NCBI RefSeq assembly: GCF_036227405.1 | Contig: NZ_CP109473.1 | Location: forward strand, 7,812,001-7,876,000 | Direction of reading: 5' to 3' | Origin: Streptomyces sp. NBC_01460 | GTDB taxonomy: Bacteria; Actinomycetota; Actinomycetes; Streptomycetales; Streptomycetaceae | DNA: 64,000 bases | Shown here: positions 27,210 through 61,170 of the stretch, piece after piece | How the letters are laid out: every line of letters begins with the position of its first letter | Numbering within the stretch: the first letter of the stretch is position 1 | Program-made: the position numbers and the translations under genes | The notes under the pieces: model-generated | The model's input: only the letters and a program-made list of their open reading frames with translations | What the model was told of the DNA's origin: nothing | The model's database searches: none

Positions 27210-27225
27210 GCTATCCAGGCAGCTT

Positions 27226-29256: not shown

Positions 29257-29734
29257 CCATCCAACCGGGCGCCCACTGATCGCTGAACCGTCATGACACC
29301 ATCGCGGCGGCACTTCCCGAGACTGGCCATTGTTACGGAATGGTATTGCTCGGCGGAAAGGGGTGGCTGGCGCCCATCATGCTTGCTGAGCTGTGCCTAG
29401 GGCCGAGTTGACCGCCCCGGCCGCGAGGCAGGACACCTCGGACAGGGTGCGGCCGGGGCGGGGTGTGAGTGGCCTCATGGTCGAGGCGAACGGCGAACGG
29501 CGGAATGGTGCGGATCCGCCGGCCCGGTGGCTGTCCAGGGGCACCGGACCGGCGGAAGTTCTTGGCCCCCTGCCATTCCGTTTCGGTCGGGGCAAAGGTG
29601 ACGGCCTTCCGAGGGACGTGACGGGACCGGCGACGAAAACGGCCCTGATCCGGTCGATCGGACGCGTGCTTGTCGGGATTTTGGCACCCCGAGGGCGGGG
29701 CGTTCCCTCGAACTCGTCCGCGCCATTGAGCACC

Positions 29735-29765
29735 ATCATGGCGCTCTATGAGAAAACTGTCAACA
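29735..29765 (-). promoter_or_regulatory. Minus-strand promoter with TGTTGACA box, no intact gene
   Basis: On the minus strand TGTTGACA (29758-29765) contains a TTGACA -35, followed after 17 nt by CATGAT (29735-29740). It is one member of the repeated box family found upstream of the catabolic operons. No intact gene follows it. Confidence 0.45.
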
Positions 29766-29977
29766 TTTACAGCTACGGAAAGAATGCATACGTGCCCCGG
29801 CGTAAGGGTGTACAGGCTGTCCTCCTGAGGAGCGAGTGGGCCGCTTGCCGTGAGTCGTAAGTAATTAGAGACTATATAGCGGCATTTGCGGCATGCCAGC
29901 CTGTGTGGAGGTGCGAGTCGATCGGTCGGTCCTCGTCTTTGTACTGCAGGCGGACTAAGTGTCCTCTGAGCAGTAAA

Positions 29978-29985
29978 TGTCGACA
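29978..29985. promoter_or_regulatory. TGTCGACA operator-like box
   Basis: This is a perfect 8-bp palindrome with AT-rich flanks (cagtaaa before it), 220 bp from the box at 29758 and about 65 bp beyond the meaB stop. It belongs to the same family as the boxes at 35.3, 44.8 and 61 kb. Confidence 0.4.
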
Positions 29986-30050
29986 GAATGAGGCCGTGCA
30001 CGCCTCTTCTGACCGTGGCCCCAACCTGAATTCCCAGCTCGCGCCGCCTA

Positions 30051-31067
30051 CTACGAGTTGCTGGTGCGGGCCGCGGCGCCGCAGCCGTTGTGTTCGGCGA
30101 AAGCGCTCAGGATGCGGTCGGCGGCCTGGGTGGGCGTCACCTCGCCGTTTCTAACTTGCTGTTCCAGCGCCGGTGCCAGTGAACGCACGGCTTGGCTGGT
30201 GTGCAGGTGACCGAGCAACTCTTCACGCACCATGGTCCACGTCCAGTCGATCTGTTGGGTGCGGCGCCGTTCCGTGAGTCGTTCGGTGGACTCCAGCAGT
30301 GTCCAGTGCTGTTCCAGCCGCTCCCAGACGGTTTCGAGACCGGTTGACTCCCGGGCACTGCATGTGAGCACCGGCGGGGTCCAGAAGGCGTCCTTGCCAT
30401 GCAGCAACCGCAGGGCACCCGCCAACTCCCTTGCAGCGGCTCGGGCGTCGCGCTCATGAGGGCCGTCCGCCTTGTTGACGGCAATGATGTCGGCCAGCTC
30501 CAAGATGCCTTTCTTGATGCCTTGCAATTGGTCGCCGGTACGGGCCAGCGCAAGCAGCAGAAAGGAATCGACCATGTTCGCCACAGCCGTCTCGGACTGG
30601 CCGACGCCGACGGTCTCGACCAGGACGACGTCGTAGCCGGCGGCCTCCACCACGACGATCGACTCGCGGGTCGATCGGGCGACGCCGCCGAGAGTGCCGG
30701 CCGTGGGGGAGGGGCGGACGAAGGCCGCATCGTCGGCGGCCAAGCGCTCCATGCGGGTCTTGTCGCCAAGGATGGAGCCACCGGTTCGACTGGAGGAAGG
30801 GTCCACGGCCAGGACGGCGACCCGGTGCCCTTGTTCCGTCAGCATTGTGCCGAAGGCGTCGATGAATGTGGACTTGCCCGCGCCCGGTACCCCGCTGATC
30901 CCGATCCGTCGGGCCCTGCCGCTGTGCGGCAGCAGGTCCGTCAACAGTCGTTGCGCAAGGGCCCGGTGCCGGGGGTGGGTGGATTCGACGAGTGTGATGG
31001 CGCGGGCGATGACCGCCCGCTCGCCGTCGAGCACTCCCTTGACGTACGCGCCGAGGTCGATTGCCAT
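30051..31067 (-). CDS. meaB: Methylmalonyl-CoA mutase-associated GTPase MeaB (ArgK family)
   Basis: This 338-residue P-loop GTPase protects and reloads B12-dependent methylmalonyl-CoA mutase. The P-loop is GISGVPGAGKSTFIDAF. Other G motifs are AVLAVDPSSSRTGGSILGDK, VETVGVGQSE and the guanine-specificity NKAD. I use the ATG at 31067 (MAIDLGAYVKG), 13 bp after the mutB stop; a longer frame reaches into mutB. It is the last gene of mutA-mutB-meaB, the usual arrangement of enzyme with its chaperone. Confidence 0.93.
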   Translation of the reverse strand: MAIDLGAYVKGVLDGERAVIARAITLVESTHPRHRALAQRLLTDLLPHSGRARRIGISGVPGAGKSTFIDAFGTMLTEQGHRVAVLAVDPSSSRTGGSILGDKTRMERLAADDAAFVRPSPTAGTLGGVARSTRESIVVVEAAGYDVVLVETVGVGQSETAVANMVDSFLLLALARTGDQLQGIKKGILELADIIAVNKADGPHERDARAAARELAGALRLLHGKDAFWTPPVLTCSARESTGLETVWERLEQHWTLLESTERLTERRRTQQIDWTWTMVREELLGHLHTSQAVRSLAPALEQQVRNGEVTPTQAADRILSAFAEHNGCGAAARTSNS

Positions 31068-31080
31068 GGTGGTGAGGCCT

Positions 31081-33255
31081 TCAGAGCTCGTGCCCGATGG
31101 CTGTGGCCAGCCGTCGGACCAGGTCGTGGGCCGCATCAGGGATTACCGTCCCGGGCGGGAAGACGGCCGCTGCACCCATCTCCATCAATTCGGAGACGTC
31201 CTGAGGCGGAATCACCCCGCCCACCACGATCATGATGTCCTCCCGGCCCTGGTCGGCGAGTTCCTCGCGCAGGGCGGGTACGAGGGTGAGGTGGCCGGCG
31301 GCGAGGGAGGAGACGCCGACGATGTGCACGTCGGCTTCGACGGCTTGGCGGGCGACTTCGGCGGGGGTCTGGAAGAGGGGGCCGACGTCGACGTCGAAGC
31401 CCAGGTCGGCGAAGGCGGTGGCGATGACCTTCTGGCCGCGGTCGTGTCCGTCCTGGCCCATCTTGGCGACGAGGATGCGCGGACGGCGTCCCTCGGCCTC
31501 CTCGAAGGCGTTGACGAGTGCGCGGGTGCGGTCCACGGACGGGGACTCTCCTGCCTCTTTGCGGTAGACGCCGGAGATCGTACGGATCTGGCCCGCGTGC
31601 CTGCCGTAGACCTTCTCCAGTGCGCCGGAGATCTCCCCGACGGTGGCCATCGCCCGGGCGGCGTTCACGGCAAGTTCCAGCAGGTTGCCTTCGCCGCCGG
31701 CTGCGCGGGTGAGTGCCGCCAGTGCGTCCTGGCAGGTGGTTTCGTCGCGTTCTGCGCGCAGGCGGCGCAGCTTTTCGATCTGCTGGGTGCGGACGGAGGA
31801 GTTGTCGACCTTGAGTACGTCGATCTTCTCGTCGGTCTCGACGCGGTATTTGTTGACGCCGATGACGGGCTGGCGGCCGGAGTCGATGCGGGCCTGGGTG
31901 CGGGCTGCTGCCTCTTCGATGCGGAGTTTGGGGATGCCGGCGTCGATGGCTTTGGACATGCCGCCGGCGGCCTCGACCTCCTGGATGTGCTGCCAGGCGC
32001 GGTGGGCGAGGTCGTGTGTCAGTTTCTCGACGTAGGCGCTGCCGCCCCAGGGGTCGATCACCCGGGTGGTGCCGGATTCCTGCTGGAGCAGGAGCTGGGT
32101 GTTGCGGGCGATGCGTGCGGAGAAGTCGGTGGGCAGGGCGAGGGCTTCGTCCAGGGCGTTGGTGTGCAGGGACTGGGTGTGGCCCTGGGTGGCGGCCATC
32201 GCCTCGACGCAGGTGCGGGTGACGTTGTTGAACACGTCCTGCGCGGTCAGTGACCAGCCGGAGGTCTGTGAATGGGTGCGCAGGGACAGCGACTTGGGGT
32301 TCTTGGGGTCGAACTGCTTGACGAGTTTCGCCCAGAGCAGGCGGGCCGCGCGGAGTTTGGCGATCTCCATGAAGAAGTTCATGCCGATCGCCCAGAAGAA
32401 CGAGAGGCGGGGGGCGAACGCGTCGACGTCCAGGCCGGCTTCCTGTCCGGCCCGCAGGTATTCGACTCCGTCGGCCAGGGTGTAGGCGAGTTCCAGGTCG
32501 GCTGTCGCGCCGGCTTCCTGGATGTGGTAGCCGGAGATGGAGATCGAGTTGTAGCGGGGCATCTTCTGCGAGGTGAACGCGAAGATGTCGGAGATGATCC
32601 GCATCGAGGGGGCGGGCGGGTAGATGTAGGTGTTGCGGACCATGAACTCCTTGAGGATGTCGTTCTGGATGGTCCCGGCCAGCTTCTCGGGCGGCACGCC
32701 CTGTTCCTCGGCGGCCACGATGTAGAGGGCGAGGACCGGGAGGACCGCGCCGTTCATGGTCATGGACACCGACATCTTGTCCAGGGGGATGCCGTCGAAG
32801 AGCTGGCGCATGTCGTAGAGGGAGTCGATGGCGACGCCGGCCATGCCGACGTCGCCGGTGACGCGGGGGTGGTCGCTGTCGTAGCCGCGGTGGGTGGGCA
32901 GGTCGAACGCGACGGACAGGCCCTTCTGGCCGGCGGCGAGGTTGCGCCGGTAGAAGGCGTTGGACTCCTCCGCGGTGGAGAATCCGGCGTACTGACGGAT
33001 CGTCCAGGGCTGGTTGACGTACATCGTCGGGTACGGACCGCGCAGATACGGGGCGATACCCGGGCGGGTGTCGAGGAAGTCGAGGCTCTCCAGATCCTGC
33101 CCGGTGTACAGCGGCTTGACGTCGATGCCCTCCGGAGTCTCCCAGAACAGGTCATCGCCGTCGGAGAGGCGCTCGATCGCCGTACGCCACTCGTCGACGG
33201 TGGCCTCGGCCTTCGGCGTTCCGAGCTTGATCCCGGAGAAATCAGGAATGGACAT
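31081..33255 (-). CDS. mutB: Methylmalonyl-CoA mutase, large (catalytic) subunit
   Basis: This 724-residue enzyme converts (R)-methylmalonyl-CoA to succinyl-CoA with adenosylcobalamin, moving propionate-derived carbon into the TCA cycle. The substrate barrel has [20 protein letters not shown] and [16 protein letters not shown]. The C-terminal B12 domain carries the base-off ligand motif [11 protein letters not shown] (DxHxxG) and [10 protein letters not shown]. The ATG at 33255 shares a base with the mutA stop (TGATG). Methylmalonyl-CoA epimerase is not adjacent. Confidence 0.96.
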
Positions 33256-35063
33256 CAGGACACTCCCATGCGGTCGAGGGCGGCGGAGAGCACCGCGACG
33301 GCGTCGCATCCCCCGAAGACGTACGTATCGACACCGGCGTGGTGCCCCGGGCGGCTCGCGAGGAACACGTGCTCGGCGCCCGCGGTCCGCAGCTGCCCGG
33401 CGACGGACTCGGCCTGCTCCGCGTAGAGCGCGTCGCTGGGGCAGAGGCACGCCGCCCGGGCTCCGCTTTCCTCGAAGGTGCCGTCGACGACGGGTTCGAT
33501 GCCGCCGGCCTGGAACAGGTTCGAGGCGAAGGCCAGTCGCGCGGTGAGCGCGGCTGCCGGGCCCAGCGCGGCCAGGAAGACGCGTGGCCGGGCACCGGTG
33601 GCGGCGAGGTAGGCGTCGGAGCGGGCGCGGAGCGCCTCGAACGCCTCGTCGCGACGCACCCGGGGAAGCCCTCCGGACGGTGGTTTCGGGAACGGCTGGC
33701 GTACGACCGGTTTCTCCGTCGGCAGCGGGAACTCACTGACACCCGTCACCGGTTCATGCCGTGTGGACAGTTTCGCGCTGCGTACGGACCAGGTCGCGGC
33801 GAGCGTCTTGCCGATCAGCCCGGAACGTAGGGCCGTCTCCTGGCCGCCTGCTCGCTCGATTTCCTGAAAGAACGCCCAGGCCGCCTGCGCGAGATCGTCG
33901 GTCAGCCGCTCCACGTACCACGAGCCGCCTGCGGGATCGATCACTCGGGACAGGTGGGACTCCTCGATGAGAATGGTGGAGGTGTTGCGGGCGATGCGGC
34001 GCGCGAACGCGTCCGGCATCCCGAGCGCACTGTCGAAGGGCATCACGGTGACGGAGTCGGCTCCACCCACCCCGGCCGCCAGTGTCGCGACGGTGGTGCG
34101 GAGCATGTTCACCCACGGGTCCCGGCGCGTCATCATCACCGGCGAGGTCACCGCGTGCTGGAGCTGTGCACCCGCCCGGGCCGCCCCGCAGGCCTCGGCA
34201 ACCCGCGACCACAGCCGTCGCGCCGCTCGCAGTTTGGCCACGGTCAGGAACTGATCGGCCGTCGCCGCGTAGCGGAACTCCAACTGCCCGCAGGCTTCCT
34301 CGACATCAAGGCCCGCCGCCGTCAGCTCGCGCAGGTAGGCGACCCCCGTCGCCAGGGAGCAACCCAGCTCCTGCGCCGCGGACCCGCCTGCCTCGTGGTG
34401 GGGTAGCGCGTCGACGGTGAACGCCCGCAGCCCCGGGTACCGCGCGGCGCACTGCCGCGCGAGGCCGAGCAGTGGTGAGAAATCCAGCGCCTCGCCCGTA
34501 CGCGCCTCGTGGCCCAGCGGATCGGCTCCCAGATTGCCACGCGCGACTGTCCCGGCGATGCCTCGCTCCTCGTACAGCCGCAGCAACTCCTCCGCGGCAG
34601 CCGGTACGTCGCGTCCGGCGTCGAGGACGAGCGGTGCCAGGTCGAGATGGACGCCCTTCAGTACCCCTTCGAGCGCGGGTACCGGGATGCCGGTGTCGCC
34701 CACGATCAGCCAGAGGGAGGTGACCCCGTTCTCCAGGTCGGTCAGGACCGAGTCGCTGTCGGCCACCGTGTGCTGTTGGCGCACGTCCCAGCCGCCGACC
34801 GTGTTCCCCTGCGCCCGCCCGCCGCGAACGAAGGGCGCACTGCCGGGAAGGCCCGGGTCGGGCGCGGCGTCGCTCTCGGTGTAGAGGGGCCGGGTGCGCA
34901 GCCCGTCCTCCAGCTCGGTGGACAGGACGTCCTCCGCTGAGGTCGCGGAGATACCTCCACCTGACTTGCGCAGGACATCTCGTACGAGGTTGCGCCACTG
35001 CTCATGTGAGGCGTCGGGGAACTCGGCGGCGAGCGGGAGCCCGTCGTCAGGCAGAACGGTCAT
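33255..35063 (-). CDS. mutA: Methylmalonyl-CoA mutase, small subunit
   Basis: This 602-residue subunit pairs with MutB. It keeps the barrel-like N-terminal part ([39 protein letters not shown]) and a degenerate B12-fold C-terminus without the DxHxxG ligand. That is normal for the non-catalytic small subunit. The ATG at 35063 ([17 protein letters not shown]) is chosen by homology; a longer frame to 35711 lacks similarity. It heads the operon. A strong promoter lies about 240 bp upstream, leaving a long leader. Confidence 0.93.
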
Positions 35064-35304
35064 GGAGGCCCTAACGAGGTCGTGGGACGAGGCGTGGGGG
35101 CGGACGGGCCTCGCAAGGTCGTTTCGCCGTGCCCGGCCGATGTGCGGTCGACTGCGGTCGACGGGAGCCGATGTGCCGAGCAAGGCGCTGTCGCGTCGGG
35201 GGTTCGCTCCGTGCGATGTCGGCCGTGGCCGGTTCCTTCCCTGCCTGTGTGCTGCCCCTGGGTGGGTGGCGAGCCCGCTCAGGAGGCGTCTGGCTTCGGG
35301 AGCC

Positions 35305-35334
35305 ATACTAAAAGGCGCCCTAAAAATGTCAACA
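35305..35334 (-). promoter_or_regulatory. Promoter of mutAB-meaB with TGTTGACA box
   Basis: Read on the minus strand, TGTTGACA (35327-35334) contains a perfect TTGACA -35. After 16 nt comes TAGTAT (35305-35310). This is the best sigma-70-type promoter I see in the window. The palindromic box overlaps the -35, so a bound repressor would block it. Confidence 0.6.
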
Positions 35335-35483
35335 GTTTGCGGGGTGATCGCCTGAGAAGGGTCTCCTGTCACCCTGATCGGCGTCAGGTTGGCCGTACCA
35401 GGTAGATCAGGCAGCGCATGGATCCCTTCGAAAGCCGCCGCCACAGTTCCTGGGGGTGGCCTGTAGGGAGGGGATCGAAAAAA

Positions 35484-35515
35484 TGTTGACAGATTTTCCT
35501 CGGCTCCCGCATGGT
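35484..35515 (+). promoter_or_regulatory. Promoter of the catabolic operon with TGTTGACA box
   Basis: TGTTGACA (35484-35491), preceded by six A residues, contains a TTGACA -35. CATGGT (35510-35515) is a possible -10 with an 18-nt spacer. It points toward the cupin gene at 35695. Confidence 0.5.
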
Positions 35516-35694
35516 GCTCCTGACCGCAACGTTCCATCGCGTCACCCCGGCCAGTCGGCGGCCGCCCGGAGTAGCAGGCCCGTGAAGCCCTCTCCGTGTG
35601 CGCCGCACTGCCGCTGCGTACACGGCTGACTGTCGTCATCGTCTGCCATCGCAAGCACCTGGCCTGCACGCCCAGCCAGAATCGAGTGACCACC

Positions 35695-36072
35695 GTGCCG
35701 ATAGACATCACCCATCTCGCTGAGGCCGCACGCTTCCAGCCCCCAGGCCACCACGGCGTCGGCCCCGTCCATCTCTTCGGGGGCGAGCAGTACGACGGCG
35801 CCGTGACGGCAGCCCTGTCGCACTACGTTCCCGGTGGGCGGGCGGACATGTCGCCCGTCGCGCTGGAGACGCTCTATATCGTGCTGACCGGCGCCCTGAC
35901 CCTCGTCGAAGCCGACGGAACCACTCACGTCCTGCATGCTCTCGACGGGGCTCGTCTCACCAGCGGAACGCTCCGCGCCGTCGAGAACCATACGAATCTC
36001 GCCGCAAGCATGCTCGTGATCCGACCGAACCCGGCCAGCCCGTCGTTCAGCGCCCCGGAGGCCCGTTCATGA
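35695..36072 (+). CDS. Small cupin-domain protein
   Basis: This protein of about 125 residues has a single cupin barrel, with GGEQYDGAVTAALSHYVPGG, LETLYIVLTGALTLVEADG and TLRAVENHTNLAASMLVI. The usual metal-binding His/Glu set is incomplete: the first motif lacks the HxH pair. It may therefore bind a small molecule rather than act as an oxygenase. The start is a GTG at 35695 (or GTG 35686 in the same frame) and lacks a strong Shine-Dalgarno sequence. It is the first gene of the operon, and its stop overlaps the CoA-transferase start by ATGA. Confidence 0.7.
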   Translation: MPIDITHLAEAARFQPPGHHGVGPVHLFGGEQYDGAVTAALSHYVPGGRADMSPVALETLYIVLTGALTLVEADGTTHVLHALDGARLTSGTLRAVENHTNLAASMLVIRPNPASPSFSAPEARS

Positions 36073-37268
36073 CCGGATCACTTGCCGGACTGCTCGTCGT
36101 CGACCTGACCCGCGCGCTCGCCGGGCCCCAGGCGGCCATGATGCTCGGTGACCTCGGCGCCCGTGTGATCAAGGTTGAGAGTCCCGCGGGGGACGACACC
36201 CGTTCCTGGGGGCCGCCGTTCGTCCAGGCGGACGACGGCACCGAGGAGTCGACGTACTTTCTGTCGTGCAACAGGAACAAGGAATCGATCACGCTCAATC
36301 TGAAGCGGGACGAGGACGCACAGGTGCTCGCCCGGCTCATCGAGCAGGCAGACGTCCTGCTCGAGAACTACAAGCCGGGCGCGCTGCAGCGGCTCGGCTT
36401 CGGGACCGCGCGGCTGATGGAGCTCAATCCCCGTCTGGTGGTGCTGTCGATCAGCGGATTCGGCCACGACGGACCCGAAGCCGGCCGTGCCGGGTATGAC
36501 CAGATCGCGCAGGGCGAGGGTGGTCTGATGTCCCTCACCGGACCGGATCCCGCTCACCCCCAGCGCGTCGGCGTACCGATCGCCGACCTGCTCGCTGGTA
36601 TGAACGGCGCCTTCGGCGTGCTCGCCGCCCTGCGCGAACGCGACCGCACCGGCCGGGGACAGATCGTGCGCACGTCGCTGCTGGCCTCCGTCGTCGCTGC
36701 CCATGCCTTCCAGGGGACCCGCTGGACCGTGGCCGGCGAGGTCGGCCGGGCGCAGGGGAACCAGCACCCGACGATCGCTCCGTACGGACTGTTCCGCTGT
36801 GCTGGCGGAAGCGTGCAGATCGCCTGCGGGAACGACGCCATGTGGCGGCGCCTCTGCGTGGCCTTCGACCTTGCGGCGGACGACCCGCGCTACGTGAGGA
36901 ACGCCGACCGCCTGGCGAACCGGGAGAGTCTCACCGCACTTCTCGAGAACGCGTTCGTGGAGCACGGGCCGGACGAACTCCTGGACCAGCTTGCCGACAT
37001 CGACATTCCGGCCGGCCGGGTCCGCACCCTGGACGAGGTCTACGAGTGGGAACAGACCCGCTCCCAGGGACTTCTCGTCGACGTCGAGCACCAGAGTCTG
37101 GGGAAGATCTCGCTACCGGGATCAGCCCTGCGGACGTACACCGTTGAAGCCGATGGCGTCGAGACGGAGACGACCCGCGTCAGTCACCGTCCCCCACCCG
37201 TCCTCGACGCCGATGCCCAGGCCGTCCGGGATTGGCTGGACACCGCGGCAGGCGCTCCCTCGGCCTGA
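36069..37268 (+). CDS. CaiB/BaiF family (class III) CoA-transferase
   Basis: This 399-residue enzyme transfers CoA between carboxylic acids. Family landmarks are VVDLTRALAGPQAAMMLGDLGARVIKVE at the N-terminus, FLSCNRNKESITLNLK, and AGYDQIAQGEGGLMSLTG with the catalytic Asp. The central GVPIADLLAGMNGAFGVLAAL and C-terminal PAGRVRTLDEVYEWEQ also fit. It would activate the carboxylate substrate or an intermediate of the pathway as a CoA thioester, or recover CoA. The specific acid cannot be told from sequence. It overlaps the cupin gene by 4 bp. Confidence 0.9.
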   Translation: MTGSLAGLLVVDLTRALAGPQAAMMLGDLGARVIKVESPAGDDTRSWGPPFVQADDGTEESTYFLSCNRNKESITLNLKRDEDAQVLARLIEQADVLLENYKPGALQRLGFGTARLMELNPRLVVLSISGFGHDGPEAGRAGYDQIAQGEGGLMSLTGPDPAHPQRVGVPIADLLAGMNGAFGVLAALRERDRTGRGQIVRTSLLASVVAAHAFQGTRWTVAGEVGRAQGNQHPTIAPYGLFRCAGGSVQIACGNDAMWRRLCVAFDLAADDPRYVRNADRLANRESLTALLENAFVEHGPDELLDQLADIDIPAGRVRTLDEVYEWEQTRSQGLLVDVEHQSLGKISLPGSALRTYTVEADGVETETTRVSHRPPPVLDADAQAVRDWLDTAAGAPSA

Positions 37269-37443
37269 GAGCGGATCGTGGCGCGGGCCCGTCCGAGCAG
37301 AGCCCCGAAGCCCGAGCCGAGGTTCCGAAGCTCCCGAGCAGAGCTTCTGGCGACTTCACACAGCACCACCTTCCCATACGCCCACACCCATCACGTCTGC
37401 GCCGGCCGGGACGGCCCGCACGCAGACCGAGAAGGAGATCTCG

Positions 37444-37938
37444 GTGAGAGATATCGAGCCGGTGCAGGCCGCCCACCAGCTGCGGCAAGCCTTCGGATGT
37501 TTCCCCTCCGGAGTCACCGCCCTGTGCGCCTACCGCGACGGCGAGCCCGTGGGATTCGCCGCGAGCTCATTCACCTCCGTGTCGATGGACCCGCCGTTGG
37601 TGTCGGTGTGCATACAACACACCTCCACGACCTGGCCCAAGCTGCGGGAGCGTCCCAGGCTGGGGCTGAGCGTGCTGGCCGAGGGCCAGGACGAGATCTG
37701 CGCCCGGCTGGCGAGCAAGAGCGGCGACCGGTTCGCCGGCGTGGACTGGTTCGCCTCGGACGACGGCAGCGTTTTCCTGGAGGGCGCCACGCTGTGGCTG
37801 GACTGCACGATCCAGGAAGAGGTGCCGTGTGGGGACCACGACATCGTGCTGCTCGGCATCCAGGGTCTCAGCGCGGTCCTCGACACCTCCCCTCTTGTGT
37901 TCCACGGCAGCCGTTTCCGGCGTCTGGCCAGCATCTGA
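37444..37938 (+). CDS. Flavin reductase of a two-component monooxygenase
   Basis: This 164-residue protein belongs to the HpaC-type flavin reductases. These supply reduced FMN or FAD to a separate monooxygenase. Typical segments are FGCFPSGVTALCAYRDGEPVG (shown in part), ASSFTSVSMDPPLVSVCI and RFAGVDWFASDDG. The GTG at 37444 has GAAGGAG upstream, which decides the start. The two acyl-CoA-dehydrogenase-type monooxygenases at 54310 and 59255 are the obvious partners, although they lie 17-22 kb away. Confidence 0.88.
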   Translation: MRDIEPVQAAHQLRQAFGCFPSGVTALCAYRDGEPVGFAASSFTSVSMDPPLVSVCIQHTSTTWPKLRERPRLGLSVLAEGQDEICARLASKSGDRFAGVDWFASDDGSVFLEGATLWLDCTIQEEVPCGDHDIVLLGIQGLSAVLDTSPLVFHGSRFRRLASI

Positions 37939-38028
37939 CGAGGGAAGGCGTCGTCCTTCCCGGACGACCGATACGCACCGGCACCACGAAGCGTGCCGGC
38001 CAACGGTTGTGAGGAATTGAGGCTAACG

Positions 38029-39162
38029 ATGGAGAGCATGCAAGCGCCGGACCGCGCACGGCCGAGAGGGGTTCCGGCAGCGGTCGTCGACGCTCCCGGC
38101 AGTGAACCGCGACTGGGTTCAGTCACGTTGCCGCCGCGTACGCCCGGCACCACGCTCGTGGCCGTGGTCGCGGCGCCGCTGAATCCGCTGGACCTGGTGA
38201 TCGCCTCCGGAACGTTCCACTCGGCTCGCCATGAGGCCCCGTACGTCCCGGGCAGTGAGTGCGTGGGCGTCGTGCTCGACTCGGACCGCTATGTGCCGGG
38301 CTCCTGGGTCTACGGTGTGTGCGACGCGTCGCCGGACACCCCGGGTTCCTTCGCCACGCAGGCACTCATCGCCGACGAGGACCTGCTGCTGCTGCCCGAA
38401 GGCCTTGATCCCGTGCTCGCGGCGGCGGTCGGCAACTCCGGCACCGCCGCGTACATGCCGCTCGTCGAGGACGCCGGTCTGCGCCCCGGCGAGACCGTAC
38501 TCGTTCTGGGCGCCACCGGCTCCGTCGGGCAACTGGCGGTCCAGGTGGCACACCGCAGCGGAGCGAGCCGGGTGGTCGGCGTCGCCCGCGACCACGCGGC
38601 GCTCGGGCGCCTTCTCCAGCTCGGCGCCGACGCTGTTGTCGATCTGCGTGCCGACGAGAGCGTGGACGAATTCGCGACCAGGCTGCGAGAGGTGGCCGGA
38701 CCGGTGGACGTCGTCCTGGACGGCGTCTACGGCGTGCCGTTCGAGGCGGCGCTCCGGGTGTGCGCACCACGAGCCAGGGTGGTCAACATCGGCAACCCGG
38801 CCGGTGCGACCGCACAGGTGCCGGCCGGGCTGCTGCGCGGCAAGCAGCTCACGCTGTCCGGCTTCGCGGGCCTGCACACCCCGTTGTCCAAGAAGCAGCC
38901 GGCGCTCACCTGGCTCTGGAGTGCCCTCGCGCTCGACGAGCTGAAGATCGACGTGCGTACCGTCGCGCTGGAGGAACTGCCGACGGCGTGGCGGGCACAG
39001 GCGGCTTCGCCGCACCACAAGTGCGTCGTCTTGCCCCAGGACGCCCACGGCTACGAGGTGAGGCGGCCTGCCCCCACCAACCCGAACGGCCGACCCGCTC
39101 CGTTCGACCACGTGCCGATCGCCCCCGCGGACCGCACCGAGGCAGGAGGGCGGGGCGCATGA
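38029..39162 (+). CDS. Quinone oxidoreductase-like medium-chain dehydrogenase
   Basis: This 377-residue protein has the GroES-like N-terminal part (LVAVVAAPLNPLDLVIASG, YVPGSECVGVVLDS) and the Rossmann motif VLVLGATGSVGQLAVQVA. The zinc ligands of alcohol dehydrogenases are absent, as in NADPH:quinone or enone reductases. It would reduce a quinone or an alpha,beta-unsaturated carbonyl intermediate. The C-terminal 40 residues are Pro-rich and not part of the fold. The ATG at 38029 has GAGG upstream. Its stop overlaps the next gene by ATGA. Confidence 0.86.
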   Translation: MESMQAPDRARPRGVPAAVVDAPGSEPRLGSVTLPPRTPGTTLVAVVAAPLNPLDLVIASGTFHSARHEAPYVPGSECVGVVLDSDRYVPGSWVYGVCDASPDTPGSFATQALIADEDLLLLPEGLDPVLAAAVGNSGTAAYMPLVEDAGLRPGETVLVLGATGSVGQLAVQVAHRSGASRVVGVARDHAALGRLLQLGADAVVDLRADESVDEFATRLREVAGPVDVVLDGVYGVPFEAALRVCAPRARVVNIGNPAGATAQVPAGLLRGKQLTLSGFAGLHTPLSKKQPALTWLWSALALDELKIDVRTVALEELPTAWRAQAASPHHKCVVLPQDAHGYEVRRPAPTNPNGRPAPFDHVPIAPADRTEAGGRGA

Positions 39163-40763
39163 CGACGCGACCTGATCCCATTCCCGCCGCGCACCTCCGG
39201 CCGGTGGTCGACTGCCTCGTCGTCGGCGGTGGTCCCGTGGGGTTGCTCACGGCCCTCCTCCTCGGCCGGGCCGGTCTGCAGGTGTCCGTCGTGGAGCGAT
39301 GGCCGGAGCGGTATCCACTGCCACGGGCGTGCACCATCGACCACGAGGCACTCCGCATCCTGCAGTCCGCGGGCCTCATGGACGACCACGCCGACTTGTT
39401 CGAAGCATCCCAGGGGGAGCGGGGCGGGTACGAGTTCCGCAACGGTGAAGGCGAACTCCTGCAGGCCATCGACTGGAACCGGGCCTCCGAGTCGGGATGG
39501 GCGAACACCAACGGTTTCTACCAGCCCGACCTCGAGGCGGCCCTCGAAGACCTGGCGGTCGCGACGCCGGGCGTGCGGGTCCACCGCGGTTGGACCTTCC
39601 AGGACGTGATTCCGGACGACGACGGAGTGTCCGTACGGGTGGGCCGCACCGAGGACCCCGCTGAGACCGCGCAGGTCCGGTCGCGGTGGCTCATCGGCGC
39701 GGACGGCGCCAATAGTGCGGTGCGCTCCCAGCTCGGCATCGGGACCGGCGACTCGGGGTTTCAGGCGGACTGGCTGGTGGTGGACTACCAGCCGCTCGCC
39801 GAGGAGGACTGGAGTGCCTTCGTCACCCAGTACTGCGATCCGGCGCAGCCCGCCACCGCGGTCAACAGCGGCCCGGGGCGACGGCGTTTCGAGTTCATGC
39901 GCCGCGCGGACATGACCGTCGAGGAACTGGGCCGGGACAGCACGGCCTGGCGGCTCATGGCGCCCTGGGGTGTCACACCGAAGACCGCCCGCCTGGAACG
40001 CCACGCCGTCTATACGTTCCGGGGGAGCTGGGCGCACACCTGGCGCGAGGGGAACGTGTTCCTCGCGGGCGACTCGGCCCATCTGATGCCTCCCTTCCTC
40101 GGGCAGGGGCTGTGCTCCGGCCTGAGGGACGCCCGCGCGCTCACCTGGCGGCTGATCATGGTCCACCAGGGGCTGGCGACGCCGGCGGTGTTCGACACGT
40201 ACGGGCCGGAACGCTCCGGCCATGTGCGGGAGATCATCGACGAGGCGGTGGCCGCCGGTCGCGTCATCTGCGAACTCGACGTCGACCGGGCGGCCGCACG
40301 GGACGCCGACATGAGGAAGCGGTCGTCCGATCCGGACGCCATCACGCGGGAGCCTCCGCACCCTCGCCTGGGTGAGCCGTCGCTGACGATCCCGGGCAGG
40401 GACGCGGAAGGGCGGCTGGCACCGCAGGGGCGCGTTCGCACCGCTGACCGGGAGGGACTCTTCGACGACGTCGTCGGTGGCGGCTGGCAGCTGATCAGCC
40501 GTGCCGGGGACCCTGCCGCGCGCCTGAGCGACGAGGACGCCGCCTGGTTCCGCGAGAGGGGCGGCGTGGTCGCCGACGTCTCGCGCGGAAGTGGCTTCCA
40601 GGATCTCGACGGGGCCTACGCGCGCTGGTTCGCCGAGCACGAGTGCGAGGTGCTTCTCGCCCGACCGGACTTCTACGTCTTCGCGGCCGGCGAGCACGAG
40701 GACATCCCACGCTTCGTCTCACGTCTGCGTCAAGCGCTCCAGCCTGCGGCGGAAGCGAGGTAA
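39159..40763 (+). CDS. FAD-dependent aromatic hydroxylase, MhpA/PheA-like
   Basis: This 534-residue single-component flavoprotein monooxygenase would hydroxylate an aromatic ring with NAD(P)H and oxygen. It has the FAD motif VVGGGPVGLLTALLLGRAGL, the DG motif WLIGADGANSAVRSQLG and the GD motif VFLAGDSAHLMPPFLGQG. The length and the C-terminal thioredoxin-like region (RPDFYVFAAGEHEDIPRFV) match 3-(3-hydroxyphenyl)propionate hydroxylase-type enzymes. An AGGAGGG precedes the ATG at 39159, and the start overlaps the previous stop. The exact phenolic substrate is unknown. Confidence 0.9.
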   Translation: MTTRPDPIPAAHLRPVVDCLVVGGGPVGLLTALLLGRAGLQVSVVERWPERYPLPRACTIDHEALRILQSAGLMDDHADLFEASQGERGGYEFRNGEGELLQAIDWNRASESGWANTNGFYQPDLEAALEDLAVATPGVRVHRGWTFQDVIPDDDGVSVRVGRTEDPAETAQVRSRWLIGADGANSAVRSQLGIGTGDSGFQADWLVVDYQPLAEEDWSAFVTQYCDPAQPATAVNSGPGRRRFEFMRRADMTVEELGRDSTAWRLMAPWGVTPKTARLERHAVYTFRGSWAHTWREGNVFLAGDSAHLMPPFLGQGLCSGLRDARALTWRLIMVHQGLATPAVFDTYGPERSGHVREIIDEAVAAGRVICELDVDRAAARDADMRKRSSDPDAITREPPHPRLGEPSLTIPGRDAEGRLAPQGRVRTADREGLFDDVVGGGWQLISRAGDPAARLSDEDAAWFRERGGVVADVSRGSGFQDLDGAYARWFAEHECEVLLARPDFYVFAAGEHEDIPRFVSRLRQALQPAAEAR

Positions 40764-40935
40764 TCGACGACGGGCCCGCGGATCGCTCGGCCCGTCGGGT
40801 CTCAAGGTTCACACGCCGGGCGGCCAGGGTGGATCCGGCTCCCCCTCTCTCGTAGTCAGGCCGACGGTCCGGTGACCGGACACGTCGGTGCGGGAGAAGG
40901 GGCGCTTCCACAAGGGGAATCAAGGAGGATTCCGC

Positions 40936-42180
40936 ATGACCATGGACAAGTCAGCAACGCTCATCCGGGCAGGCGAAGACCCGTCCGACAGGAGCAGGGA
41001 AGCGACGGGGTGGCGTACGGCCATAGCGTCCGCGCTCGGGCTCACTGTCGGCCCCAGCGTTCTCACGGTCATGTCGTTCGGGGCGTTCATCGCCCCGCTC
41101 CACCGGGAGTTCGGCTGGGGCGTCTCCGACATCGGCCTGGCTGCTTCCTTCCTCAGCATCACGGTCATGATCATTTCGCCCCTGCAGGGTTACCTGGTCG
41201 ACCGGTACGGGGGCCGCCGAGTCATCCTGTGCAGTTCTCCGGTCTTCGGGCTCTCCCTCATGGGGATGTACTTCCTGCCCGACAACCTATCCGTGTTCTA
41301 CCTGGCCTGGGCCCTCATCCCGGTCTGCGGCCTGGGCCTCTGGCCGGTCGCCTACCTCCGTCTCACAGCGGGCTGGTTCGAGCGAAAGCTCGGGTTCGCA
41401 CTGGGGATCGCCAACTCCGGCATCGGAGTCGGCACGGTGATCGTTCCCATCCTCACGGCATGGCTGATCGGGGCGTTCGGCTGGCGAGCGGCTTTCCTCG
41501 GGCTGGGGGCGGTTGCGCTCATCGCCTTCCCGATCGCGTTCTTCCTCATCACGGAACCGAGCCCACGTAAGACAGATGTCAGTAGGAGTGGCGACACGCT
41601 CAAGGTCTCAGCGCGGAGGAGGCCGTTCTGGCTCATCCTGGGGGCGTTCCTCCTGCTCGGGCTGGTCGGTTCCTCTATAACGGTCTATCAGATTCCTCTG
41701 TTGCTCGATGCCGGCGTCCCGGAACACATCGCCAACCTGGTGCCGGTGGCGCTCGGGCTCGCACTCATCGTGGCCAGGGTCGTGACCGGGTGGCTGCTCG
41801 ACCGCTTCAAGGCGTCGGTGGTCATGGCCTTCAACCTCACCGGCGGTCTCATATCGGTGCTGCTGTTCGCGGCGGGACCGAACGTGGTGACGGGGCTTAT
41901 CGCCGCGGCGCTGGCCGGTCTGTTGATCGGCGCCGAGTTCGACGTCCTCAGCTATCTCGTGCCCCGGCACTTCGGACGTATGGCCTACGGCAAGATCTAC
42001 GGCATCGCGTTCTCGGCGTTCCAGATCGGCGGGGCGATCGCCTCGTCCGCGGTGAGCGCGAGCCGGGAGAGCTCAGGCTCCTACACTCCGGCGATGCTCA
42101 CGCTGGCCGTCGTGTGCGTGGTCTGCGCAGGCATGTTCATGTGCCTCGGCCCCTATCGGTACGACGCGGCTCACAAGTGA
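40936..42180 (+). CDS. Major facilitator superfamily transporter
   Basis: This 414-residue membrane protein has about 12 hydrophobic segments. It also has a typical MFS loop between helices 2 and 3 (GYLVDRYGGRRVIL) and its counterpart in the second half (GWLLDRFKASVVMA). It resembles monocarboxylate/oxalate-formate-type MFS carriers and probably imports the pathway substrate. The ATG at 40936 follows a strong AAGGAGG. It lies inside the catabolic operon, 172 bp after the hydroxylase gene. Confidence 0.9.
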   Translation: MTMDKSATLIRAGEDPSDRSREATGWRTAIASALGLTVGPSVLTVMSFGAFIAPLHREFGWGVSDIGLAASFLSITVMIISPLQGYLVDRYGGRRVILCSSPVFGLSLMGMYFLPDNLSVFYLAWALIPVCGLGLWPVAYLRLTAGWFERKLGFALGIANSGIGVGTVIVPILTAWLIGAFGWRAAFLGLGAVALIAFPIAFFLITEPSPRKTDVSRSGDTLKVSARRRPFWLILGAFLLLGLVGSSITVYQIPLLLDAGVPEHIANLVPVALGLALIVARVVTGWLLDRFKASVVMAFNLTGGLISVLLFAAGPNVVTGLIAAALAGLLIGAEFDVLSYLVPRHFGRMAYGKIYGIAFSAFQIGGAIASSAVSASRESSGSYTPAMLTLAVVCVVCAGMFMCLGPYRYDAAHK

Positions 42181-42348
42181 AAACGGAACGAGAGCGCAGG
42201 AGCGCCCCGAGCCGACGAGGGCCCCGCTCGGCAGCACTACCGAGGCGCTGTCCTGGTCCGGGCGTACCGGACAGCACACCCTGTCGCACGAATGAGCAGC
42301 ATCACCCCCCACACACAGACCCACCCACGAAGAAAGGCAGGGAACGTC

Positions 42349-43488
42349 ATGACGGCAACGCCACATCAGCATCCTGACGCTGAGCTTCCGGAGGCACACC
42401 GGCCGCGGACGGGTGGCTCGTTCGACGCGACGGCGGTCACCTTCGCGGCGATGGGGCTCTTCGACGGACTGAGTGCGGACCAGCGTGAGCAGGCGCTGCT
42501 GCCCTGGACGAACCCCGACCGGACGCACTGGAACTTCCTGCCGGAGTCCGGCCGCCCGGGCGTGCCGCTCGGAGACCTGGACCGGAGACAGGAGGTGTTG
42601 GCGCACCGGCTGATCGCCGAGTCGATGTCGACCGCGGCGTACGCTCGTGTGGTCCAGGTGATGTCCAACGAGCACGTGCTCCGCGAACTGAACCAGTCCC
42701 TCTTCGGGCACGTCGCAGCCACGCTCCGCGACGCGCGCGGCTACTTCCTCGTCTTCTTCGGCCAGCCGCAGCCGGACACCACCTGGGGCTGGCGCCTGGT
42801 GGGCCACCATCTGTCGATCAACATCACCGTGGTCGACGGCGACCTGGTCAACGCCACCCCGTTCCTGCTCGGTGCCGAACCTGCCCGCTTCGGCCCCTTC
42901 CGGATCCTCGGCGAGGAGGAGGACGCGGCCTTCGTCCTTCTGGACAGCCTCACCGCCTCCCAGCAGCAGCGGACCATCATCCATTCCAGGCCGCCGGCGG
43001 ACTTCGTCACCCGGACCGTGGCGACCGTCGGCGAGGTCGAGTACCCCGCCTACCACGGGGTCGGCCGCCGTGACGCAATGATCACCGACGAGGACCGCAA
43101 GGCCCTGGCCTACTTCCGGGCCCATCCCCGGGGCTTCCGGGCCGGTGACCTCTCACCGGCCCAGCGCAAGGACTTCGACGAGCTGCTGGCCCTGTTCGTG
43201 GAGCGTGCCCGGCCGGGCCTCGTGGGCTTCGAGATGGACCGGATCGCGGCTGCCGGGGGAGTGGAGGATCTGCACTTCGCCTGGGCAGGCGGCACATCGA
43301 TCGAGCAGCCGCACTACTTCCGCATCCAAGGTCCGGTCACGCTCGTGGAATTCGACAACGCCGAGGACAACGCCAACCACGTGCACAGCGTCTGGCGTGA
43401 CCCCTCCAACGACTTCGGTGCCGATCTCCTGATCCAGCACCTCCTCGATCATGACCACACCGGGGGGCGCGAAGACGCCGGCGACTGA
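42349..43488 (+). CDS. DUF3500 domain protein
   Basis: This 379-residue protein matches the DUF3500 family, as judged from LGHLSINITVVDG-like sequence (WRLVGHHLSINITVVDG), TPFLLGAEPARFGPFRIL and the C-terminal HVHSVWRDPSNDFGADLL. The function of the family is not established to my knowledge. The conserved histidines and acidic residues suggest a metal-dependent or haem-free hydrolase or oxygenase, but that is inference. No signal peptide is seen. The ATG at 42349 has AGGCAGGGAA upstream. Its place between transporter and hydrolase makes it a likely enzyme of the pathway. Confidence 0.8.
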   Translation: MTATPHQHPDAELPEAHRPRTGGSFDATAVTFAAMGLFDGLSADQREQALLPWTNPDRTHWNFLPESGRPGVPLGDLDRRQEVLAHRLIAESMSTAAYARVVQVMSNEHVLRELNQSLFGHVAATLRDARGYFLVFFGQPQPDTTWGWRLVGHHLSINITVVDGDLVNATPFLLGAEPARFGPFRILGEEEDAAFVLLDSLTASQQQRTIIHSRPPADFVTRTVATVGEVEYPAYHGVGRRDAMITDEDRKALAYFRAHPRGFRAGDLSPAQRKDFDELLALFVERARPGLVGFEMDRIAAAGGVEDLHFAWAGGTSIEQPHYFRIQGPVTLVEFDNAEDNANHVHSVWRDPSNDFGADLLIQHLLDHDHTGGREDAGD

Positions 43489-43656
43489 CCGGCGGGCGGA
43501 CTCCGGAGAATCTGCCGATCGCCAGGAACCCGGACGGCAGTGACGCCGTCCGGTGCAGGACCGCCGGCCGACTGACGGCCCGGTGCCTGAGGCGCGAGAA
43601 CAGCAATGACCGACACGGGTCCCGGGCACATCCCGAGGACCAGGAAGGGAAAACAC

Positions 43657-44571
43657 ATGAGGATCGTGGGCATCAGGCGACCGCGTGCCGACTACGGGGT
43701 GGAGGTCGCGGCCCTGGCCGACGACGGCGGGGTCACCGTCATCGCCCCACTGGCGGATTTCTGGGCCGACCCGGCGGGACATCTCTCCCGGCCGCCCGCG
43801 GGTCCGACACTCGACGCCGCGGCGGTCGAGCAGGTGCCGCCGGTGCTTCCCGACGCACGCGTGTTCTGCATCGGACTCAACTATTCGGAGCACGCCGCGG
43901 AAGGGTCCTTCCGCGACCAGGAGCTGCCCCCCTATCCCACCCTGTTCGCCCGGTGGACTCAGTCACTCACCGTTGACGGTGCGGAGGTTCCCGTGCCCTC
44001 CAACGAGGAGGGCCTGGACTGGGAGGGCGAGGTCGTCGCCTGGGTGGGGGCACCGCTCGTCGACGCGGCACCCGAGGAGGCCCTGGCGTCCGTCATCGGG
44101 TACTCCGCCTTCAACGACCTGACCTCGCGCAAAGCGCAGAAGCTGACGTCCCAGTGGATTCTGGGCAAGAACGGAGACCGGTCCGGGCCCATCGGCCCGA
44201 TGGTCCCCGCTGCCGAGGTCGGGGACCTCAGCCAGGGCCTCAGGCTGCAGACGCGCGTCAACGGCGTGACGGTGCAGGACGCTCGCACCGATCAGATGAT
44301 CTACACGGTCGGAGACACGCTGTCCCTGATCTCGCACACCCTGTCCCTGCGCCCGGGCGACATCCTCGCGACCGGTACGCCGTCGGGTGTCGGCTACGCC
44401 CGTAAGCCCCCTCAGCTCCTGCAGCCGGGAGACACAGTCGAGGTCGAGGTGGAACGTCTGGGGAGGGTGCGCAACACCGTCGTGGACAACCGGCATCGAT
44501 CGGCGGGTGACTCCTCCTTGCGCCGCCCTTCCTTCGGGGGCGTCGAGAACCAGCTCACCTCGAGGCGCTGA
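43657..44571 (+). CDS. Fumarylacetoacetate hydrolase family protein
   Basis: This 304-residue enzyme belongs to the FAH superfamily. Its members hydrolyse C-C bonds or isomerise and hydrate ring-fission products. Visible features are FCIGLNYSEHAAEGSF, the metal-binding DWEGEVVAWVG, GYSAFNDLTSRKAQ and GDILATGTPSGVGYARKP. Metal ligands appear intact. It would act on a ring-cleavage product late in the pathway. A good GGAAGGG precedes the ATG at 43657. It is the last gene of the operon and is followed by a strong terminator. Confidence 0.92.
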   Translation: MRIVGIRRPRADYGVEVAALADDGGVTVIAPLADFWADPAGHLSRPPAGPTLDAAAVEQVPPVLPDARVFCIGLNYSEHAAEGSFRDQELPPYPTLFARWTQSLTVDGAEVPVPSNEEGLDWEGEVVAWVGAPLVDAAPEEALASVIGYSAFNDLTSRKAQKLTSQWILGKNGDRSGPIGPMVPAAEVGDLSQGLRLQTRVNGVTVQDARTDQMIYTVGDTLSLISHTLSLRPGDILATGTPSGVGYARKPPQLLQPGDTVEVEVERLGRVRNTVVDNRHRSAGDSSLRRPSFGGVENQLTSRR

Positions 44572-44762: not shown

Positions 44763-44791
44763 TTGACCTGCTAAGTGTCGACAGTTTCAGT
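44763..44791 (+). promoter_or_regulatory. Candidate gntR promoter with TGTCGACA box in the spacer
   Basis: TTGACC (44763-44768) and TTCAGT (44786-44791) could be -35 and -10. The perfect palindrome TGTCGACA (44776-44783) lies between them, a classic repressor position. A second related site, GGTCGACA (44962-44969), sits just before the gntR start. The rest of the 402-bp gap after the FAH-family gene holds the terminator and no gene. Confidence 0.45.
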
Positions 44792-44973
44792 TAAGAGAGA
44801 GGGCGTGTGCGGCTCGGTCAGCCTGTATATCCCAGGCGAGTGGGGCCAGCGGAGTCACGGATGGACTAGGACGTCACCTGAAGTGTCGGCAAAGTGGTCG
44901 CGGCTTGTCGGCTACGGTTGTCCTTGCAGCTCATCCAGGCGCCCTGTGGACACGCACGAAAGGTCGACACAAC

Positions 44974-50930: not shown

Positions 50931-50937
50931 ACCGCTT

Positions 50938-59254: not shown

Positions 59255-60523
59255 TCAGGCTTTGCCGGGTGCGACCGGGGCGAAGCGGTCGAGAGTTGTG
59301 ATCCCCGCGAACTTGTGCGGCTGGACCCCGGCCATCAGCCTGCCGTAGTTCTCGGAGAGGGCCTCGAGGTTGAGGGCGCCGTGCAGTGTGATGACGCGTG
59401 CGTCGCGCCAGGCCCTCTGGATCGGCTCGCTCTCCATGATCGCGGTCGAGCCGGAGTTCCTCTGGATGAGCTCGATCGCCTCCGCACACCATTTGGCCGC
59501 GTACGCCGTCTCGACGAGCACCCGGGCACTGAACATCTGCATGTACTCCGGATCGGCCGGTGTCCCCGCTGCGGCGAGCGCCCCGAGCCGGTCGGTCTCC
59601 TCGGCATTGGCACGAGCCGACAGAGTCGCGGACTGGATCTTGGAATGCACCTCGGCGAGCATCAGGTGCGTGGAGGGCGCTTCCAGCTGGTTCTTGTACG
59701 TGGTGCCGCGGATCGGCCGGCCGGCGGAGCGCTCGAGGAACCTCTCCAGCGCGCCGTGCGCGAGGCCGATGGACATCCCCGCCATCAGACTGAAGGCCCA
59801 GCCGAGCGAGGGCGCCTTCCACAGGCAGCCCTTGAGGCCGTTGTCGATCGTCCCGGCCGCGATGTGACGGAAGTCGACACAGCGATGATCGGGCACGAAG
59901 AGTTCATCGCCCACGAGGGTGAGAGAGACGCTTCCGGTGGCGCGCATTCCGGCGACCTGCCAGTCGTCGAGGGAGCGCAGCTCGTCGCGCGGAACCTGAA
60001 CGGCCAGGAGGTAGGGGCCGTCGCCTTCGTCAGCGATGCAGCCGAGATTGGTGAAGGGCGCCCAGAGGGAGTCGCTTCCGAACGTCCAGGGGCCGCCGGT
60101 GATGACCCAGCCGCCCTCGACCCGCTGTGCGCGCCCCTTGGAGGCCGGGAAGTGACTCGAGCCGGCGACCCGCGGTCCCACCCACTCGGTTCCGTAAACC
60201 TCTTCGACGACGCGCGCACCCGAACCGGCGGGAATCCAGTTCGTGGAGGCTCCTACCCACACGCTCCATCCGCACGAACCGTCCCACTTCGAGACCTCGG
60301 AGACGACGTCGAGCTGCTCCCGGACGGTCAACTCGTAGCCACCGAACTCAGCAGGGCTGCCGATGTCGAAAGCACCGGTGGCGTCCAGGTCGGCGATGGT
60401 CTCGTCCGAATGACGTCCGGCGCGCTCGGCGTCGAGCGCACGCTTGCGCAAGGTGGGTCCCAGCGCGCGGACCCTCGTGAGGATCGACGCCAGTGCCTCG
60501 GACGTGTCGTGGGTCGCAACCAT
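59255..60523 (-). CDS. Flavin-dependent monooxygenase, HsaA/acyl-CoA-dehydrogenase type, second copy
   Basis: This 422-residue protein has the same fold as the enzyme at 54310 but is clearly diverged. Its segments are ATGAFDIGSPAEFGGYELTV, GSCGWSVWVGASTNWIPAG, EGGWVITGGPWTFGSDSLWA and SGSTAIMESEPIQRAWRDAR. It matches HsaA- and p-hydroxyphenylacetate-hydroxylase-like oxygenase components. AGGAG directly abuts the ATG at 60532, so the ATG at 60523, with 9-nt spacing, is the better start. A TGTYRACA promoter lies about 400 bp upstream and is divergent from the SnoaL-like gene at 61499. Confidence 0.87.
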   Translation of the reverse strand: MVATHDTSEALASILTRVRALGPTLRKRALDAERAGRHSDETIADLDATGAFDIGSPAEFGGYELTVREQLDVVSEVSKWDGSCGWSVWVGASTNWIPAGSGARVVEEVYGTEWVGPRVAGSSHFPASKGRAQRVEGGWVITGGPWTFGSDSLWAPFTNLGCIADEGDGPYLLAVQVPRDELRSLDDWQVAGMRATGSVSLTLVGDELFVPDHRCVDFRHIAAGTIDNGLKGCLWKAPSLGWAFSLMAGMSIGLAHGALERFLERSAGRPIRGTTYKNQLEAPSTHLMLAEVHSKIQSATLSARANAEETDRLGALAAAGTPADPEYMQMFSARVLVETAYAAKWCAEAIELIQRNSGSTAIMESEPIQRAWRDARVITLHGALNLEALSENYGRLMAGVQPHKFAGITTLDRFAPVAPGKA

Positions 60524-60914
60524 CGTGGTCATCTCCTGTGCTTCGTTCTTGTGGGTGGAAGGCCGGGGTCTGCGACGCCGGGTGTGGTCGGTGCCCGGTG
60601 TCCCGATGCCAGGACCGGAGCTACGGGCTGCCGTGGCCGGTCGGGGCGCTCCCGCGCCGCAGACCGTGTCGTGGAGGTGCTCCGCGTGGCCACCTGAACC
60701 AGGGCGGTCGTACGGCTAAGGTCAGATTCGTCGCAATGTGGCCGCGCACGGTGGCGTCTCCGGGCGGGAGACCTCAGGGCTTACGTTGATTCCGTGGTGC
60801 CCGGTCCGGTTCCTCCGCGCGGACGCTCGGCGGCTCCCGCGGCCGGGTGTCGTCGTCTGCGGCGCCCTCGGCCTAGATCACGTGGTCGGTTCTGTCGTAG
60901 GGCCCACCACCGGC

Positions 60915-60946
60915 ACCGTAAGAGAAGGCACGACAGAGTGTCAACA
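60915..60946 (-). promoter_or_regulatory. Promoter of the second monooxygenase with TGTTGACA box
   Basis: On the minus strand TGTTGACA (60939-60946) supplies TTGACA, and TACGGT (60915-60920) follows after 18 nt. The upstream flank is AT-rich (AAAA), as in the other members. Confidence 0.5.
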
Positions 60947-61139
60947 TTTTCCTATTGGTCGATCAAGGCCTCTTCGTCATGCGTGGATGAGCCGGGCTGG
61001 CGTCCGGCTGGTCGGTTCGTCCACCTCTGTGTCTCCCATGCGTGCTCACGGCTGGATGGGCGTCGGGCCATGCCCCTGCGCGCCACTGAGTCTCCAGCCG
61101 TTCACTCGGGAAGTGCTAACTGTTCGGCCCGGCGCAAAG

Positions 61140-61170
61140 TGTTGACAGGTCTGTCGTAGCTCCTGATGAT
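61140..61170 (+). promoter_or_regulatory. Promoter of the SnoaL-like gene with TGTTGACA box
   Basis: TGTTGACA (61140-61147) supplies TTGACA, and GATGAT (61165-61170) follows after 17 nt. It points to the gene at 61499. Confidence 0.5.

Follow-up and report, generated by a model that had tools for sequence, protein, structure and literature searches.

The question raised by this locus is what a recurring 8-bp palindrome, TGTYRACA, does between the genes of a catabolic region of Streptomyces sp. NBC_01460, and which protein would bind it. The window, meaning the whole 64,000-nucleotide stretch of DNA that was analysed, is positions 7812001-7876000 of contig C1 (G000:C1) in a genome of 8.8 Mb, and it encodes an FCD-type GntR regulator at 44974-45702. 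The boxes are probably the operators of this GntR (we put the probability at about 0.83), from which it would repress catabolic promoters by covering their -35 elements and would also regulate its own gene. The initial annotation, made from the sequence alone, had likewise assigned the boxes to one GntR regulon, and sequence comparison favours this: the clusters of three genomes with orthologous regulators are rearranged, and they keep boxes before the same genes and before gntR.

All seven TGTYRACA boxes listed in that annotation (29758, 29978, 35327, 35484, 44776, 60939 and 61140) were recovered where it had placed them. The pair spacings in the window (220, 157 and 201 bp) agree with the 157-220 bp that it had claimed, and the five boxes said to supply a -35 do read TGTTGACA in one orientation, each followed after 16-18 nt by a -10-like hexamer. 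The window holds nine TGTYRACA in all, versus a mean of 1.58 in shuffled sequence, and nine was reached by 0 of 100 shuffles. The remaining two (2308 and 26692) are within open reading frames (ORFs) and have flanking A/T fractions of 0.3 and 0.5, versus a mean of 0.71 over eight own-genome cluster boxes. No box reaches a matrix score of 8.5 in the intergenic region of ACS/SSF or of TetR/S15. A further pair, 203 bp apart, is found right of the window at L001:9643 (TGTCTACA) and L001:9846 (G000:C1:7884643 and 7884846), between the genes for an S15/CocE hydrolase and an NmrA-like protein; the NmrA-like gene is boxed by 9846.

A whole-genome motif scan had been suggested as a check, on the ground that boxes at chance frequency in unrelated intergenic regions would speak against a regulon. 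The bare octamer is indeed common (136 sites in the own genome, 70 in the reversed control), whereas the octamer with an A-rich flank, AAANTGTYRACA, has 10 distinct sites (reversed control 0) and is concentrated in the cluster: seven of the 10 are within 43 kb here, six in the window and one beyond its right end at 7884846 (for seven or more in that fraction of the genome, the binomial chance is 8e-15). As AAANTGTYRACA was read off these same boxes, other genomes are the fairer test. The consensus of 19 boxes, eight from the own genome and 11 from others, is WAARTGTTGACASTTT, a near-palindrome AAAnTGTYRACAnTTT. The TGTnnACA core is present in 19/19, the set having been selected for TGTYRACA, with TGTCTACA at L001:9643 and TGTCGGCA at 44884 left out.

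The GntR is rare, being matched at E<=1e-30 in 10 of 295 same-genus genomes, own included, and the best other match is 41% identical. One scan of a species-level genome collection gave three orthologs, in Actinomadura sp. OS1-43 (83% identity), Streptomyces sp. SID11385 (81%) and Streptomyces sp. SID10853 (77%). Large parts of the cluster are found in all three genomes in different gene order (tblastn cluster comparison at E<=1e-10; box-locus comparison at E<=1e-12 and identity >=38%). There, 9 of 11 distinct AAANTGTYRACA sites are on promoters of the orthologous cluster (Actinomadura 3/4, SID11385 4/4 on three contigs, SID10853 2/3), with two single-strand hits in the reversed control. A stricter 16-mer, WAARTGTYRACANWTT, also drawn from these boxes and scanned with no more than one mismatch, has 18 distinct sites in the four genomes, 14 of them at cluster promoters (7/8, 2/3, 4/5 and 1/2 by genome; reversed control 0). 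Near-identical copies AAAATGTCGACTCATT and TAAATGTCGACTCATT are also seen at G296:C92:2063 and G297:C319:1306, in the two other Streptomyces genomes that have the cluster, off the contigs where it was placed.

The same genes carry the boxes from genome to genome. The cupin/CoA-transferase genes are boxed in 4/4 genomes (window, L022, L023 and L026), as is the SnoaL gene at 61499 (window and its orthologs at the same three loci), and mutAB is boxed in both genomes examined, the window and SID11385 (mutA promoter box L020:9767). In the window, the HsaA-like monooxygenase gene at 59255 is preceded by a boxed promoter of its own; at the loci of Actinomadura, SID11385 and SID10853 it is downstream of the boxed CoA-transferase promoter on the same strand. 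A TGTYRACA box is found upstream of gntR in 4/4 orthologous clusters (window, L019, L020 and L021), and the corresponding box in SID11385 serves the divergent mutA promoter. Thus the predicted target list of mutAB-meaB, the 35.6-44.6 kb run, the second monooxygenase, the SnoaL-like gene and gntR stands at the level of sequence, with the NmrA-like gene added and the partner box at 44962 removed. A rare, uncharacterised GntR thereby gains a candidate operator and a target list that survive gene shuffling between Actinomadura and Streptomyces. Within the main text of open-access journal papers, none was found that names GntR together with TGTTGACA; among the matches listed, none had TGTNNACA (20 of 28) or TGTCGACA (15 of 3,949), GntR with TGTCAACA gave two papers, on Neisseria and pneumococcus, and no title in broader listings pointed to this regulon.

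The position of the boxes on promoters suggests how the GntR would act. Across all loci, 17 boxes read TGTTGACA, and a -10-like hexamer (TACGGT, TAGGGT, CATGAT and similar) follows 16-18 nt on in 15 of them, the two without being the gntR-upstream boxes of L019 and L021. Thirteen of the 15 face an identified gene; window 29758 and L024:6254 do not. A -10 was found at 0 of 25 other distinct box sides, these two gntR-upstream misses counted, and at 2.6% of random positions; the hexamer pattern was set after the box promoters had been viewed. As the candidate operators of catabolic promoters enclose the -35 hexamer (TGTTGACA contains TTGACA), GntR bound there would block RNA polymerase. A ligand from the pathway, bound in the FCD domain, might then free the boxes and so allow expression of mutAB-meaB, the 35.6-44.6 kb run, the genes for the HsaA-like monooxygenase and the SnoaL protein and, beyond the right end of the window, the NmrA-like gene. 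Such a design predicts tight repression, and would suit a compact sensor of the pathway substrate. We infer GntR binding and repression rather than activation, as well as any ligand or loop.

The regulator has the domains claimed for it, an FCD domain and an N-terminal GntR winged helix-turn-helix (PF00392, 55.3 bits versus a cutoff of 27). The C-terminal domain has six helices in the VanR group and seven in the FadR group; an AlphaFold2 model (mean pLDDT 70, from a 4-sequence alignment) shows six between residues 84 and 223, followed by another, short helix at 230-239. The recognition-helix stretch SRGPLREALRILQ is the same in all four orthologs. At sequence level the locus also has the operator trait of the FCD subfamily, an A/T-rich GT..AC palindrome near the regulator's own gene and its targets. 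Candidate operators at gntR itself, at 44776 and at the imperfect box TGTCGGCA (44884), imply autoregulation. The second element is found in all four orthologous upstream regions, 106-130 bp past the upstream gntR box, and is preceded by AAG in three orthologs and AAA in SID10853. The weaker box proposed earlier at 44962, GGTCGACA, does exist, but it adjoins the Shine-Dalgarno-like GAAAGG, and the three orthologs have GGCCCGCA, GGCCGGCA and GGCCTGCA in its place; this box was rejected as an operator, the conserved second element being that at 44884.

Table 1. Genes and candidate operator boxes of the predicted GntR regulon (window coordinates).
Feature	Position	Strand	Remarks
Box, TGTTGACA	29752..29771	-	faces left; -10 CATGAT at 17 nt; gene target not found
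Box TGTCGACA	29972..29991		downstream of meaB stop; both sides without -10
mutA-mutB-meaB (methylmalonyl-CoA mutase and GTPase)	30051..35201	-	probable regulon genes; upper limit from alignment to SID11385
Candidate operator box, TGTTGACA	35321..35340	-	overlaps -35 of mutA-mutB-meaB promoter; -10 TAGTAT at 16 nt
Candidate operator box, TGTTGACA	35478..35497	+	overlaps -35 of cupin-CoA transferase...FAH gene run; -10 CATGGT at 18 nt
Catabolic run: cupin-like, CoA-transferase III, unknown, ADH, MhpA-like FAD monooxygenase, MFS, DUF3500, FAH-type hydrolase	35596..44571	+	
Upstream gntR candidate operator TGTCGACA	44770..44789		198 bp ahead of gntR ATG; both sides without -10
Imperfect second gntR box AAGTGTCGGCA	44881..44891	+	holds TGTCGGCA at 44884-44891, present in all four orthologous upstream regions
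GGTCGACA, named in initial annotation	44962..44969	+	beside GAAAGG of gntR; not conserved in three orthologs
gntR, FCD-type GntR regulator, 242 aa	44974..45702	+	presumed box binder; FCD PF07729 E 6.1e-23, GntR PF00392 E 5.3e-15
HsaA/HpaH-like flavin-dependent monooxygenase	59255..60532	-	
Candidate operator box, TGTTGACA	60933..60952	-	overlaps -35 of HsaA-like monooxygenase gene; -10 TACGGT at 18 nt
Candidate operator box, TGTTGACA	61134..61153	+	overlaps -35 before SnoaL-like gene; -10 GATGAT at 17 nt
SnoaL_4 protein	61499..62020	+	

The pairing of the boxes may have a further meaning, namely that a GntR tetramer or two dimers bridge boxes about 90-220 bp apart and loop the DNA. This would be an addition to repression at single boxes, and we hold it as a tentative one. 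Pairs are also found where only one promoter is seen (gntR and the NmrA-like gene), and a VanR-group relative, the FCD-GntR tetramer Atu1419 of Agrobacterium fabrum hydroxycinnamate catabolism, is reported to loop two ATGTATACAT palindromes 190 bp apart, with a further degenerate palindrome 109 bp away (PMC7797058). Set beside that description, the centre here is YR and not TA, the boxes are on the -35 and not the -10, and six boxed promoters are spread over about 38 kb; identity to Atu1419 in a structural alignment is 18-19%. However, in all five divergons with a gene identified on each side (window 35327/35484 and 60939/61140; L022, L023 and L026) each box has its own -10, so that one operator per promoter already explains the pairing and no loop is needed. 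The spacings range from 89 to 220 bp, and helical phasing, tried as evidence for looping, was set aside as not significant (p about 0.08-0.71 over five helical repeats).

Activation of these promoters by the GntR, rather than repression, is quite unlikely. FCD regulators can activate, CitO and position-dependent FadR being discussed in PMC6608401, and the location of the upstream gntR box, at -198, is not one typical of repressors; however, the boxes at catabolic promoters lie on the -35 itself, and a dimer bound there should keep RNA polymerase out. That another regulator binds the boxes, either the TetR at 50106-51017 or a host protein such as a second FCD-GntR, is very unlikely. The TetR gene is kept beside the SnoaL gene in Actinomadura (77% identity), but at E<=1e-20 neither G296 nor G297, both of which have boxes, gave a TetR match (in G297, 150 of 184 candidates were scored), and the TetR was rejected as the binder for lack of a match in these two of the four box-bearing genomes. 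The clusters themselves carry the GntR with a box ahead of its gene in 4/4 cases. The second FCD-GntR gene (L004:1998-2780, G000:C1 about 7553128) carries AAATTGTTGACAATATG, a box that shares the 8-bp core, where the called ORF begins; its core is flanked by T before and A after, however, a flank that none of the 19 cluster boxes has, and the protein may be a separate FCD regulator that controls its own gene through a related core. It is highly improbable that the boxes are mere strong sigma-70/HrdB -35 elements, as the -10 counts given above and the -10 found at 5 of 12 other TTGACA in these loci would allow, since symmetric conservation reaches past TTGACA on both sides (AAn ahead of it, nTTT behind), copies of the flanked unit gather in this cluster, and the gntR-upstream boxes of the window, L019 and L021 keep TGTYRACA without a -10, the window copy TGTCGACA being unusable as a -35; retention of the octamer where no promoter uses it favours an operator.

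Besides those -10 hexamers at other TTGACA, several observations weigh against assigning the boxes to this GntR. The SnoaL53470-monooxygenase54175 genes have no box in the window, while their SID11385 orthologs are boxed (L024:6350); the TetR may control these unboxed genes together with the S15 gene. TGTTGACA fits the published FadR-subfamily core NyGTM-N0-1-KACNy imperfectly, the matrix scores of two ortholog boxes (15.0 and 17.1) are near that of one within-gene match (15.5), and the AAATTGTTGACAATATG box of the second FCD-GntR makes cross-talk possible. Among 14 non-orthologous homologs (36-42% identical), only two, G093 and one on a Pantoea plasmid, have TGTNNACA-type palindromes within 450 bp upstream, and the two AAANTGTYRACA sites of G093 are both away from its gntR. 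A palindrome common to the approximately 40% identical homologs was therefore discarded. In favour of the assignment, G093, whose homolog is 41% identical, has TTCTGTCGACAGAA and a second site, TGTCGACA, upstream of its own gntR. On the Pantoea soli plasmid, two TGTATACA palindromes are found 239 bp apart (L038:6561 and 6800) upstream of the gene for a 38% identical homolog, which adjoins UxaA-type and FAH-type hydrolase genes; the layout is paired and the centre is different.

Among known systems, FadR-subfamily regulators are described as having A/T-rich palindromic motifs with TKGT/ACMA, a GT-AC gap of 3 nt, or 2 nt in some groups, and divergons in which two sites serve one operon each or act cooperatively (Suvorova et al. 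2015, PMC4494728). The boxes here resemble these in their A/T-rich GT..AC palindromes, double-site divergons and 2-nt GT-AC gap; the portion of that paper available, with supplementary tables outside its scope, describes no regulon with the operator or gene set found here. AlkR of Pseudomonas aeruginosa (VanR group, PDB 9isw) binds ATTGTCAGACAAT (PMC12042122), and, unlike here, has a one-base spacer between the arms, an operator on the -10 region and one main target described. The nearest solved sequences are those of PmiR (PDB 7xp0/7xp1), the top match to the GntR (E 4.4e-20), and McbR (4p9f), both FCD-GntR proteins like this one, with different hosts and targets. A parallel with PmiR is that the regulon here includes mutAB, which handles propionyl-CoA-derived methylmalonyl-CoA. 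PmiR itself reportedly senses 2-methylisocitrate, to go by a paper title.

The genes of the 35596-44571 run, presumably one operon, point to degradation of an aromatic compound. The MhpA-like hydroxylase scores 527.8 bits with NF004829 (cutoff 390), a DUF3500 protein (42292-43488) is found within this aromatic catabolic run and in 4/4 clusters, and MutB is a full-score methylmalonyl-CoA mutase (1315 bits versus a cutoff of 876). A DUF3500-containing aromatic pathway would thus be tied to methylmalonyl-CoA mutase under one predicted switch. In Aspergillus nidulans a DUF3500 protein is the proposed 1,2,3,5-tetrahydroxybenzene dioxygenase, according to PMC12388069, and PMC13094099 describes that pathway as apparently confined to fungi. 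With the MhpA-like hydroxylase, DUF3500 and FAH-type hydrolase in one run, and the mutase under the same operator, a looping FCD-GntR could govern a bacterial counterpart of the fungal pathway and sense a ring-opening product or a propionate metabolite. We consider this combination unlikely, and both the pathway substrate and the GntR ligand are ones that we only infer. In a Rhodococcus paper, genes for MhpA-like, MFS, DUF3500 and FCD proteins are listed under locus tags that lie close together.

The pair at 29758/29978 does not lie before mutAB-meaB; it is downstream of the meaB stop (ORF end 30051). The box at 29758 resembles a leftward promoter, with no convincing gene to its left: four ORFs scanned in 27200-30060 gave only sub-threshold Pfam matches, and no tRNA or Rfam match was found there. 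Scattered pieces similar to parts of this DNA occur in 28 of 295 genomes of the genus, own included, and with the sub-threshold matches this makes 27200-30060 look decayed. The surrounding stretch of the window, 25662-30060, consists of a serine recombinase gene followed by gene-poor DNA of lower GC, and 28137-28718 has a counterpart of 84% identity elsewhere in the own genome, at C1:7679203.
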